The notes beneath the pieces are model-generated. The model was not told the DNA's origin. It made no database searches and saw nothing but the letters and a program-made list of their open reading frames with translations. A DNA stretch of 64,000 nucleotides, taken from NCBI RefSeq assembly GCF_000186865.1, contig NW_008705567.1, positions 807,476 to 871,475 on the forward strand. Direction: 5' to 3'. Source of the DNA: Aureococcus anophagefferens (taxonomy: Eukaryota; Sar; Pelagophyceae; Pelagomonadales; Pelagomonadaceae). Positions within the stretch are counted from its first letter, which is position 1, and the number at the start of each line of letters is the position of its first letter. The translations under genes and the position numbers were made by a program. Shown piece after piece: positions 18,081 through 22,427 of this stretch.

Positions 18081-18269
18081 GATTCCGCGGCGCGGCGTCG
18101 AGCCACCGGCTTTTTGCCCTGCTTTTTTTTTGCTGTGGCGAAAAGAGGCTCGCCGCACGCGCTCGTCGCCCCGTAAGAGCGCCCCCCCCCGTCCGCCACA
18201 AGAGACGGAACAGGCCCCAGAACACGCGAAGGAGACCGCACGAGCCCTCGCTACGACGAGGACCGCACG

Positions 18270-19403
18270 ATGCGCGACTGGGAGAAGAAGCAAAAAGAAT
18301 ATGAAGAGCGCATGGCCCGGGTGAAGAACGCTAAGCTCCGTACGACCTGCACCATCTGCGGAGCGAAAGCGAAGCTCCCATGCCCCTGCGGAACCGCCCA
18401 GTACTGCAGTGTCGCCTGTCAGAAGGTCGACTGGCGCGAGCGCGGCCACCGGACGGCGTGCAAGAAGATCCGAGACGAGCGCGCGGCGGAGGCGGCGCGG
18501 GCCGAGGCGCCGACGCCCCCGCCGTCGCCGCCAAAGGAGGTGTTCTACGGCCCCGCGCCGCGGTCGCACGCCGACGAAGTCCGCGCGCGCATCGCCGCGG
18601 AACACGAGGCCGCTCGCGCGCGGCGCGAGGCGAACCCGGAGCCCGAGCCGCTGTCGGCGCGATTTGGGAGCCGGTGCCCAGTTTGCTTCGAGGACTGGGA
18701 CGTGAATGAGTGGCAAAACATGCGTCCGTGTTGCTGCCTGAAGGTCTGCGAGTCGTGCCACCACAAGATCGGCTACAAGCCGTGTCCCCTCTGTCGTAAG
18801 CCGGCGCCGAAGACTCATGCGGAGTGTCTGGCTCACATTCGTCGCCACATGGAAAATGATGTGCCAGAAGCGATCAGTCATTTGCAGTGTCGGCGCATGG
18901 GTGCCTACGTAGTCTCGTCCGGAGCCTACAAACCAAGCCGAATCCACGTAGGTTTTTTGGCGGATTGCTACTTTTCTGGTAGCCATGAGCTCGTGATATC
19001 TACCAAGAAGGGTGCGAGATTGTATAAACGTGCGGCAGAGCTCGGAGACGTTAATGCGACGTGGAATCTTGCGATTTTGTACAAAAACGGACAGGGCGTC
19101 AAGATGAACGAGACCAAGGCCATGCAACTGAGTCGCGTGGCCGCGGACCGGGGCCATCCAGTAGCACAGTTCCAGTTGGGAATGGAGATTCTAGGGGAGA
19201 AAAACAAGGAGACAGAACAGGAGGGGCTCCGTTACGTCTGGTTAGCGGCAAAACAAGGCCTTATGGACGCGGAGTTCATCCTGGGCGGTATTTATTCCTG
19301 CGGAGAAGACGCCAACCTCGACGCAGCCAAATTCTGGCTTTCGCGGGCCGCCGCCAAGGGCAGCGAGCAAGCAAAGACGCGCCTGGCGCAACTCGACGCG
19401 TGA
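18270..19403 (+). CDS. MYND-finger / RING / Sel1-repeat protein
   Basis: Single exon, 377 aa. A MYND zinc finger is at residues about 28-65 (CTICGAKAKLPCPCGTAQYC...CQKVDW...GHRTAC). A RING-type C4-variant finger is at about 132-175 (CPVCFEDW...RPCCCLKVCESCHHKIGYKPCPLCRK). At least three Sel1-like repeats cover about 240-370 (GARLYKRAAELGDVNATWNL, AMQLSRVAADRGHPVAQFQL, GLRYVWLAAKQGLMDAEFIL, AAKFWLSRAAAKGSEQA). MYND and RING fingers suggest protein-protein interaction and possible ubiquitin-ligase activity, with Sel1 repeats as adaptor. GC content falls clearly after about 18840, so the Sel1 part differs in composition from the finger part. Confidence 0.85.
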   Translation: MRDWEKKQKEYEERMARVKNAKLRTTCTICGAKAKLPCPCGTAQYCSVACQKVDWRERGHRTACKKIRDERAAEAARAEAPTPPPSPPKEVFYGPAPRSHADEVRARIAAEHEAARARREANPEPEPLSARFGSRCPVCFEDWDVNEWQNMRPCCCLKVCESCHHKIGYKPCPLCRKPAPKTHAECLAHIRRHMENDVPEAISHLQCRRMGAYVVSSGAYKPSRIHVGFLADCYFSGSHELVISTKKGARLYKRAAELGDVNATWNLAILYKNGQGVKMNETKAMQLSRVAADRGHPVAQFQLGMEILGEKNKETEQEGLRYVWLAAKQGLMDAEFILGGIYSCGEDANLDAAKFWLSRAAAKGSEQAKTRLAQLDA

Positions 19404-19435: not shown

Positions 19436-22427
19436 TTACCCCACGTCCGCCATCCAGTCCCCCGGCTCGCCCGCGTCCGCGACGCCCGCGGCGGTGACGG
19501 CGAAGTGCGACGACGGCAGGTCGCCGAAGTCGTCGCGCGCGCCCGTGACGAGCGTCGCGGACCGCTCGCCGGAGGCCGCGCTCCGCGTGAGCCGCAGGCG
19601 CGCCGTCGCGACCTTGGCGAAGGTCGCGTCGTCGGCGGCGACGACGGCGCTCGGGTCGGCGCCGTCGGAGAAGTCCGCGGAGACGTGGTTCGTGAGCACC
19701 GCGGGGACGCCGTGCGCCTGCGACAGCGCGGCGACGGCGGCGAGCGCGTCCGCGAGCGCGGCGCGCCGCTCCCGGGGCGGCAGCGCGCGGACGACGTCCG
19801 CGAGGCAGTCGACGACGAGGAGCGACACGCCGTGGGCCGCGCAGACCTTGGGCGCGTCGCGCGCGAGCGTCGCGAGGAGCACCTCCGCGTCGTGCGCCGA
19901 CGACACGAGCAGGTCCCGCGCGCGGTCCGCGTTTCCGCCGCGGGCCTTGAGGAAGGCGAGCGACGCGCGCGCGGCGCTCCGGCCCTTGGTCTCGACGACG
20001 AGGACCTTCGCGCCGGGCGCCGTCCGCGCGAGCGTGAGCGCGACGAGCGTGTGCGCGAGGTTCGACTTGCCCGCGCCGGCCTTGCCGTGGATCTCGAGGA
20101 TGTCGCCGCGGCCGAGGGCCAGCGCGCGGTCGACGGCCTCGCCGCGCAGGAGGCCGAGCCGCGGCCGCGGCGCGCGCGGCGCGGGCGGCGGCGGCGGCGG
20201 CGGCGTCGCGGGCCGCGGCGCCGCCGCGGGCCGCGCGGGCGACTGGCGCGAGCGCTTCCGCGCGAGCGCCGCGGCCTTGTTCTCCTCGATGCGCCGCTTC
20301 AGCGCCTCGTTCGCCGTGACCGCCGCGCAGGGCGGCCGCGGCCGCGGCTCCGGCTCCGCGGGCGGCGCGGCCGCGGGCGGCGNNNNNNNNNNNNNNNNNN
20401 NNNNNNNNNNNNNNNNNNNNNNNNNNNNNNNNNNNNNNNNNNNNNNNNNNNNNNNNNNNNNNNNNNNNNNNNNNNNNNNNNNNNNNNNNNNNNNNNNNNN
20501 NNNNNNNNNNNNNNNNNNNNNNNNNNNNNNNNNNNNNNNNNNNNNNNNNNNNNNNNNNNNNNNNNNNNNNNNNNNNNNNNNNNNNNNNNNNNNNNNNNNN
20601 NNGCGACGTGATCGCGGCCATCGCCGCCGCGACGGCGGCTCCCGCCGGGACCGCGGGCGGCGGCGCGTCTTGCGGCGCGGGCGCGGGCTTCGGCGGGCCC
20701 ACGCGCTTCGGCACGCGGATGGGTCTCGGGCCCTTGGGCTTCGCGGCCGCGGGTTTCGCGGCCCGCGCGTCGTTCATGAGCTTCGACGCCTTCTTCAGCG
20801 CCGCCTCCGACGGGCAGACGAGCTTGCGCGAGCCCGACGTGACGAAGACGCCCGGCGTGACCGCGGGCGGCTCGTCGTCGACCTCCGCCGCCGGCGCCGC
20901 CGGCTTGGCGGGCGCGGCCACGGGCCGCGGCACGACGATGGGCCTCGGCCCCGCGGGTCTCGACGCCTTCGTCGCCCCGGCGTCCTTCATGAGTTTCGTC
21001 GCCTTCTCGAGCGCGGCGTCCGACGGACACACGCGCTTCCGGGAGCCCGACGTGACGAAGACGCCCGGCGGCGGCGCCGGCGCCTCCGGCTCGGCCGGCG
21101 GCGCGGCGGCTTTCGCCGGGCCCGAGTCGCTCATCAGCTTCGTCGCCTTCTTGAGCGCGGCGTCCGACGGGCACACGAGCTTTCGCGAGCCCGACGTGAC
21201 GAAGACGCCCGGCGGCGGCGCCGGCGGCGCGTCCAGCTCGGCCGCCGGCGCGGCGGCTTTCGTCGGGCCCGAGTCGCTCATCAGCTTCGTCGCCTTCTTG
21301 AGCGCCGCGTCCGACGGGCACACGAGCTTCCGGGAGCCCGACGTGACGAAGACGCCCGGCGGCGGCGCCGGCGGCGCGTCCAGCTCGGCAGTCGGCGCGG
21401 CGGCTTTCGCCGGCTCCGAGTCGCTCATGAGCTTCGTGGCCTTCTCGAGCGCCGCGTCCGATGGCGACACGCGCTTCCGGGAGCCCGACGTGACGAAGAC
21501 GCCCGGCGGCGGCGCCGGCGGCACGTCCAGCTCGGCCGCCGGCGCGGCGGCTTTCGCCGGCTCCGAGTCGCTCATCAGCTTCGTCGCCTTCTTGAGCGCC
21601 GCGTCCGACGGGCACACGAGCTTCCGGGAGCCCGACGTGACGAAGACGCCCGGCGGCGGCGCCGGCGCCTCCGGCTCGGCCGCCGGCTCGGCGGCGTTCG
21701 CCGGCTCCGAGTCGCTCATCAGCTTCGTCGCCTTCTTGAGCGCCGCGTCCGACGGGCACACGAGCTTTCGCGAGCCCGACGTGACGAAGACGCCCGGCGG
21801 CGGCGCCGGCGGCGCGTCCAGCTCGGCCGGCGGCGCGGCGGCTTTTGTCGGCGCGGCGGCTTTCGCCGGCTCCGAGTCGCTCATCAGCTTCGTCGCCTTC
21901 TTCAGCGCGGCATCCGACGGGCACACAAGCTTCCGGGAGCCCGACGTGACGAAGACGCCCGGCGGCGGCGCGTCCATCGTCGCCTCGTTCGTCTCCGGCT
22001 CCGCGGCGGCCGGCGCCTCGGGCCGCGACGCGGGCTCCTCGGCGATCGCGGGCAGCGGCGGCGGCGGCGGCGGCGCGACGGTCGCCACGACCTCGCGACG
22101 CGGCGGCGGCGCGACGGCGCGCGGCGGCCGCCGCGGCGGCGCGACGGCGCGCGGCGGCGCGACGAGCTCGGCGCCGAGCAGGATGACGACCTGCTCGCCC
22201 TTGATCGTGTTCAGCAGATAGTTCGTCAGGCGCACGACGCCGCCGATGCCCAGGCCGCGCAGCGTCACGTTCAGCTTCTGCGCGACGTTGCACGCGATCG
22301 TCGCGTCGCCGTCGGTGAGCGTGAGGCGCAGGCGCTGGTGGTGGTTGAAAGACATGGCCTTGACGCGCAAGCACGGGTTGACGACCGCAGCGCTCTCGGC
22401 CTTGATCTTTTCTATCAATCCTTTCAT
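19436..22427 (-). CDS. RPA70N-like / BRC-repeat / RAD51-like ATPase fusion
   Basis: Starts at 22427 (MKGLIEKIKAESAAVVNPCL) and ends at 19436. Residues about 1-85 match the RPA70 N-terminal OB domain: VKAMSFNHHQRLRLTLTDGD, then LNVTLRGLGIGGVVRLTNYL and NTIKGEQVVILLGAELV. Eight repeats follow (about 21970-20790) with core F-V-T-S-G-S-R-K-x-V-x-P-S-[DE]-A-A-L-x-K-A-[ST]-K-L-M, which fits the BRC consensus FxTASGKxVxVSxxxLxKAxxL. After a 220-base gap, TANEALKRRIEENKAAALAR resembles the RPA32-binding helix of SMARCAL1/XPA/UNG2. The C-terminal 220 aa is RAD51-like: Walker A GKAGAGKS, Walker B SLLVVDCLAD, VLTNHVSADF, and an ending LRLTRSAASGERSATLVTG with HFAVTAAGV. Frame continuity across the gap cannot be proved; strand, open frames and lack of a stop or start on either side support one gene. 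Confidence 0.7.
20383..20602. other. Assembly gap (220 N) inside the BRC/RAD51-like gene
   Basis: A run of undetermined bases between the last visible BRC-like repeat region and the segment leading to the ATPase. The true length is unknown, so the number of repeats and the reading frame across it are uncertain. Confidence 0.99.
20780..21975 (-). repeat. Eight BRC-like coding repeats, mostly 144-147 bp period
   Basis: The codons for the VTSG core recur with spacings of about 164, 144, 147, 147, 147, 144 and 214 bases. Copies are nearly identical at the DNA level, with variation mainly in the Pro/Ala/Glu linkers. The last copy on the gene's strand (lowest coordinates) is the most diverged and has the longest linker. 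Recent unequal exchange or gene conversion among the units is the likely cause. Confidence 0.85.

Follow-up and report, generated by a model that had tools for sequence, protein, structure and literature searches.

The DNA analysed here is a stretch of 64,000 nucleotides from Aureococcus anophagefferens (the window), which corresponds to C7:807476-871475 in a 49,050,692-base assembly of 86 contigs. On its minus strand lies a candidate fusion gene that is broken by an assembly gap (Table 1). The first half of the gene, of 608 codons, encodes an RPA70N-type domain followed by eight BRC-type units, and the second half, of 314 codons, runs from a Pro/Ala-rich linker through an RPA32C-type helix to an ATPase core. 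In a window so rich in G+C, long open frames arise often and are by themselves little proof of a gene; the codon-position G+C (0.71/0.60/0.95 in the first half and 0.81/0.61/0.99 in the second) is consistent with coding in both halves. An earlier note on this DNA, made from the letters alone, had claimed the same combination of an RPA70N pattern, eight BRC repeats, an RPA32C-type helix and a RAD51-like ATPase, and this layout is borne out at the positions given in Table 1. The profile searches that it proposed, with PF04057, PF00634 and PF08423, gave signal for all three over the Pfam cut-offs, that of PF00634 being summed over the array.

Table 1. Features of the candidate fusion gene and its surroundings, in positions of the window.
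Feature	Position	Strand	Basis or remark
Candidate fusion gene	19436..22427	-	ATG at 22427, TAA ending at 19436; broken by assembly gap
RPA70N-type OB domain, residues 3-89	22161..22421	-	PF04057 28.1 bits, cut-off 26.7
BRC-type unit 1	21870..21971	-	
BRC-type unit 2	21705..21806	-	
BRC-type unit 3	21561..21662	-	
BRC-type unit 4	21414..21515	-	
BRC-type unit 5	21267..21368	-	
BRC-type unit 6	21120..21221	-	
BRC-type unit 7	20976..21077	-	Best Pfam stretch 460-482
BRC-type unit 8, divergent	20763..20864	-	Isolated unit without Pfam match
Run of 220 N	20383..20602	.	Separates BRC frame and ATPase frame
RPA32C-binding-type helix EALKRRIEENKAAALARKRS	20249..20308	-	Sequence likeness to SMARCAL1
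RAD51/RadA-family ATPase core	19439..20146	-	PF08423 33.9 bits, cut-off 22; without visible RAD51 N-terminal domain in read sequence
Walker A, GKAGAGKS	20063..20086	-	Alignment
VVETKG, Lys at RAD51 catalytic Glu position, Glu at D161 position	19982..19999	-	Alignment
Walker B, LLVVD	19808..19822	-	Alignment
Copies of the GACATTCCCAACTTCAAAGG element	1737, 10546, 23272, 30288, 34717, 38730, 42067, 42625, 50849, 56883		Pattern count

A DNA search of the genome with the whole gene gave at least 105 matches, and no second copy was found among the best 40 of 630 candidates that were scored. Two of the matches are the gene itself, one is its other strand and one is a repeat of BRCA2 (on C31); the remainder fall at query positions 230-486 or 2046-2357, which are G+C-rich linkers, except for three at 1160-1219, 1730-1772 and 2623-2702. 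The neighbour of the gene, at 18177-19403 on the plus strand of the window, is a MYND-finger/Sel1-repeat gene of a very large family, with at least 199 matches in the genome (102 of 339 candidates scored). By eye, look-alike MYND/Sel1 frames (L002:33-1118 and L003:28-1134) also stand beside two very similar DMC1-like genes, L002 and L003, which share a contig at a distance of about 67 kb (C3, at 2616 kb and 2683 kb), and the MYND/Sel1 matches listed include two near these loci, C3:2613224 and C3:2680091. A short dispersed element with the core GACATTCCCAACTTCAAAGG occurs 10 times in the 64 kb of the window, allowing up to 3 mismatches, where 0 copies are expected; the fusion gene itself contains none of these copies, and a stretch like the element was seen by eye beside a RAD51B-like gene (L006). 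This may be an introner element of the kind known from Aureococcus.

The N-terminal domain is barely above the Pfam cut-off, yet it stands far from shuffled sequence when scored with a profile of the organism's own making: an HMM built on six RPA70N stretches found in this genome, which are domain matches and maybe not each a full RPA1 gene, gave 30.7 bits, and when the same residues were shuffled 2,000 times the highest score was 11.7. The RPA70N pattern claimed for the N-terminus is thus upheld. Against PDB sequences, the N part alone retrieved a single chain with E<=1, which belongs to an unrelated enzyme, and the ssDNA-binding OB folds A, B and C of RPA1 had no Pfam match at E<=10 in either read half. 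RPA70N-type domains are found at seven places in the genome (C3, C15, C22, C5, C23, C7:829636, which is the fusion gene, and C7:990753), six of them over the Pfam cut-off, so that Aureococcus possibly holds an expanded set of these domains.

The repeats that follow have a period of 147 bp over 6.6 copies and match PF00634 with 37.9 bits (cut-off 20.3), a score that is summed over near-identical copies. When five isolated units were scanned, three from the array and two from BRCA2, three matched PF00634 and no other family, with 12.3, 13.7 and 14.9 bits, all under the cut-off, and two matched nothing. A six-frame search of the whole genome with PF00634 did not report the array, and is therefore blind to these units; its sole match, on C8, has 19.3 bits, is under the cut-off and lies in a frame that we judge to be non-coding. 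The strongest argument for reading the units as BRC repeats is internal to the genome and independent of Pfam. A genome search with one unit gave at least 10 matches, and all 10 of the candidates scored are either the eight units of the array or two repeats within the organism's canonical BRCA2 (C31), which are 82% and 73% identical to the query. The claim of eight BRC repeats therefore holds for the array as a whole, with single units under the Pfam cut-off. A profile of six units was also run against PDB sequences and gave 6 matches, the best at E 0.45; two BRCA2 peptides at E 0.54 and 0.9 match just the C-terminal part of the unit, the other four matches are unrelated and three of these rank above both peptides, so this search gives no support by itself to the BRC identity.

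The hotspot of the unit reads F-V-T-S-G-S-R, and relative to human BRC4 the units carry one extra residue downstream of it. Human BRC5 has this same pattern, FxTS.xR, and its interaction is described as very weak (PMC3136434). The cores of the array are near-constant in amino acids and their changes are mostly silent, with a mean dN of 0.03 and dS of 0.26 for the 26-residue core over 28 pairs, which are non-independent and drawn from a short stretch.

The helix in the second half carries the pattern IEEN(K/R)..ALAR, which it shares with SMARCAL1. Against PDB sequences its sole match at E<10 is the SMARCAL1 peptide 4mqv_B, at E 0.41, which is not significant alone. The helix also has the top score among the 101,229 stop-free 20-mers of the six-frame window, with 46 against 37 for the next, and the stretch had been picked out in the earlier note before this scoring was made. 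As a sequence likeness, then, the SMARCAL1-like segment proposed there is confirmed. It had been counted as one of two contacts to RPA, the other being the N-terminal domain, and here only the first part of the proposal stands. The RPA70N domain is a piece of an RPA-type receptor that binds acidic partner peptides, and is therefore not itself a contact to RPA; on this property of the family, we rejected it in that role. By its likeness to SMARCAL1, the helix is a candidate contact to RPA, and the only one in the fusion. None of SMARCAL1, UNG2, XPA, TIPIN and NEIL1 is known to be a RAD51 mediator. All five are among the proteins with RPA32C-binding helices that are named in PMC11387677.

The C-terminal ATPase belongs, in a broad sense, to the RAD51 family, as was claimed from GKAGAGKS and other motifs. 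It has a RecA/RadA core with Walker A and Walker B motifs, it matches PF08423 over the cut-off, and its structural model matches the fold, although this model was built with archaeal rows, which favours a RadA fold; a single-sequence model had a pLDDT of 50.1 and was discarded. The core is preceded by the Pro/Ala-rich linker and the helix. The hallmarks of a RAD51 recombinase, namely the catalytic Glu, the FxxA linker with its pocket and the N-terminal domain, were looked for and not found in the read sequence. A Lys stands at the position of E163, the catalytic Glu of RAD51, and the pocket is changed from F166 to S, P168 to A, L171 to S, L203 to T, A207 to D and M210 to K. The suggestion of a self-regulated recombinase is not supported by these changes, and we rejected it as the best reading; judged by its residues, the ATPase is a divergent paralogue rather than a recombinase open to regulation by the BRC units beside it. 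In a 9-row tree the fusion sits on a long branch and one of the six inner branches is supported. The Rad51 family search had already covered every locus that queries with human RAD51D and XRCC3 returned from the genome, and the fusion gene was among the matches of neither query. In diatoms, according to PMC4647503, canonical XRCC3 is reported for P. tricornutum alone, and RAD51D and XRCC2 were not found; it is therefore possible that the fusion ATPase is a divergent stramenopile paralogue.

The partners that such a protein would need are present in the genome. An RPA32C domain is over the cut-off at three of the four loci reported. A canonical BRCA2 gene, with helical and OB1 domains and two BRC-type repeats, lies at C31:162380-165388; the protein model P0005 represents it (99% identical to the locus) and has 91.6 bits for BRCA-2_OB1 and 38.1 bits for BRCA-2_helical, with no PF00634 match at E<=1. 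As the genome already has a BRCA2, the fusion would not be its sole mediator. The helical and OB DNA-binding domains (PF09169 and PF09103) are absent from both read halves of the fusion in Pfam searches at E<=10, and genome matches over the cut-off were obtained on C31 for both and on C42 for PF09103. The BRCA2 locus adjoins a 21.7-kb run of N, and an 8,262-aa frame there was set aside as an artefact of this run. A second, partial BRCA2 match is found at C42:185463-186983 (query residues 489-992).

For the organism's RAD51, we compared by alignment the positions chosen to represent the pocket for BRC and FxxA motifs, and most of them are retained. It is identical to human RAD51 at M158, Y159, I160, F166, P168, L171, L186, V189, A192, L203, L204 and A207; four other positions are changed, namely A190 (V), Y205 (K), S208 (C) and M210 (L). 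Its linker reads FVTA, where the array reads FVTS. The idea of a mediator that handles both RPA and RAD51, also put forward in the earlier note, gains support from this comparison of sequences.

It has to be considered whether the two halves form one gene. As drawn, they do not read as one open frame, since the BRC frame and the ATPase frame are one base out of register across the 220 N; this mismatch is easily explained, as the true length of the gap may differ from 220 N. The out-of-register frames would also suit two neighbouring genes on the same strand, one for a protein with RPA70N and eight BRC units but no DNA-binding domain and the other a separate RAD51-paralogue gene with the RPA32C-type helix, with the gap hiding a stop and a start. 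The moss BRCA2 is an example of a BRC protein that functions although it lacks the canonical DNA-binding domain (PMC12412785). However, if the gap length is right, a stop, a spacer and a start would all have to fit into about 220 bases, and the sequence on either side of the gap, read in the respective gene frame, is Pro/Ala-rich linker.

Protein models from other strains bear on the same question. P0004 (JL721_6829, strain JL721) shares with the fusion gene the opening residues MKGLIEKIKAES and the closing ATPase, and has Rep-A_N, BRCA2 and Rad51 Pfam matches over the cut-off in one model of 985 aa; in local BLASTP its identity to the first half is 69% (670 columns) and to the second half 88% (314 columns). 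It has eight unit positions, two of which look broken by eye, and its linker, compared by eye, is in other frames than that of the window; errors in this model are possible. In P0003 (JL720) the N-terminus and one unit are joined to a C-terminal remnant of the ATPase, about 89 residues long, with a Rep-A_N match of 25.3 bits, under the cut-off, and no Rad51 match at E<=1. In favour of two genes, P0002 (SO694) begins inside the linker and holds the C-terminal half alone, with frame-shifted stretches and no Rad51 Pfam match at E<=1. The gene differs strongly between the assemblies behind P0003 and P0004, in that units are missing or out of frame; either faulty assembly or true variation of the array may be the cause. 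Two models join the halves in other strains' assemblies, and the single polypeptide claimed earlier is likely, although the window does not show one open frame; the two halves are probably one gene, and two separate genes are unlikely.

We propose that this one gene encodes an RPA-tethered, multivalent loader of RAD51 with a non-recombinase, RAD51-like domain at its C-terminus, a reading that we hold to be evenly poised between right and wrong. The RPA32C-type helix would first dock on RPA-coated ssDNA. The array would then hold several RAD51 monomers through FVTS hotspots that mimic the FVTA linker of RAD51, and it would work by avidity and easy release and not by a tight grip, as the Ala-to-Ser hotspot resembles that of human BRC5, a weak binder. 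The ATPase core probably binds nucleotide but could not accept the following protomer, and would therefore sit at one end of the filament, as has been proposed for RadB, Rad55 and XRCC2; these are paralogues without the N-domain, for which a role in enforcing capping is put forward in PMC7618403. In what is the weakest step, the RPA70N domain may recruit partners that carry acidic RPA70N-binding peptides, or may compete with RPA for them. Engineered fusions of BRC and RPA sequences are described as correcting the recombination defect of BRCA2-deficient cells (PMC3240595), which shows that the two can act together in one chain. In its fullest form, the proposal is of a natural all-in-one mediator: the one polypeptide would dock on RPA, hand over a series of RAD51 monomers held at low-affinity BRC sites, and then terminate the filament by means of its inactive RAD51-like domain; this we offer tentatively, as something possible but rather doubtful.

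The same parts could instead make a RAD51 sink, or anti-recombinase, whose free BRC units titrate RAD51 or strip it from DNA and whose dead ATPase, in which most of the site that would receive another protomer is altered, blocks the growth of the filament. Modules of the FxxA type antagonise RAD51 oligomerisation (PMC3136434) and BRC4 at higher concentrations impedes filament formation (PMC12412785). However, the RPA32C-type helix and the RPA70N domain point to action on RPA-bound ssDNA, the Ser hotspot predicts weak single units (PMC3136434), and the engineered BRC-RPA fusions promote recombination (PMC3240595); we consider the sink improbable. A decaying or strain-variable gene without function, arising by chance fusion with an unstable minisatellite, would account for the broken units of P0004, the shortened P0003, the frame-shifted P0002, the ATPase residue losses and the failure of protein searches with the ATPase or the N part to find relatives outside Aureococcus, each among the 8,000 candidates sharing most words, but it is very improbable given the near-constant array cores, the codon-position G+C of the C part and P0001, an older JGI model of 214 aa (partial ATPase) that is listed at 100% identity to the fusion ATPase, with one difference seen by eye.

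Each module of the proposed RAD51 loader is already known, and it is their combination in one gene that is new among the literature and proteins searched. The earlier note knew of no described protein with this combination, and we likewise found none in the literature searched, which consisted of open-licence PMC texts. If the proposal is true, one chain unites the jobs of BRCA2 and of the RAD51 paralogue complexes, which are separate proteins elsewhere. Since BRCA2-type loading and capping by RAD51 paralogues are carried out by different proteins, their coordination is difficult to study experimentally; a natural chain with loading, capping and an RPA-docking helix would make their coupling testable in one purified protein. 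The array would be an added case of multivalency built on weak, BRC5-like hotspots.

Among the closest known systems are the engineered BRC-RPA70 fusions (PMC3240595; the original is its ref. 12), of which the Aureococcus gene would be a natural counterpart. Both have BRC units and RPA70 sequence in one chain; the engineered ones are artificial and made for delivery to ssDNA, whereas the Aureococcus fusion has just the N-terminal RPA70 domain visible and has an ATPase in addition. With SMARCAL1 it appears to share the IEEN(K/R)..ALAR helix, and with RadB, Rad55 and XRCC2 a RecA core that keeps its nucleotide-binding motifs and has no visible RAD51 N-terminal domain, although the fusion differs in carrying the BRC array, the RPA70N domain and the RPA32C-type helix. 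In the BRCA2 of Trypanosoma brucei, as described in PMC2408642, BRC units have likewise multiplied recently in tandem, all nearly identical except for a diverged final one, but there the array sits in a BRCA2 with its DNA-binding domain. Unit numbers taken from an assembly may be wrong for arrays of this type: for T. brucei TREU927, 15 units had been predicted and 11 were found (PMC2408642). Finally, BRCA2 itself, including that of Aureococcus, has units of the same local sequence, G-V-(F/L)-V-T-S-G-S-R-K; in contrast to the organism's own BRCA2, the fusion has no helical or OB1 domain in the parts read, carries eight units where BRCA2 has two, and adds an RPA70N domain and a RAD51-like ATPase.
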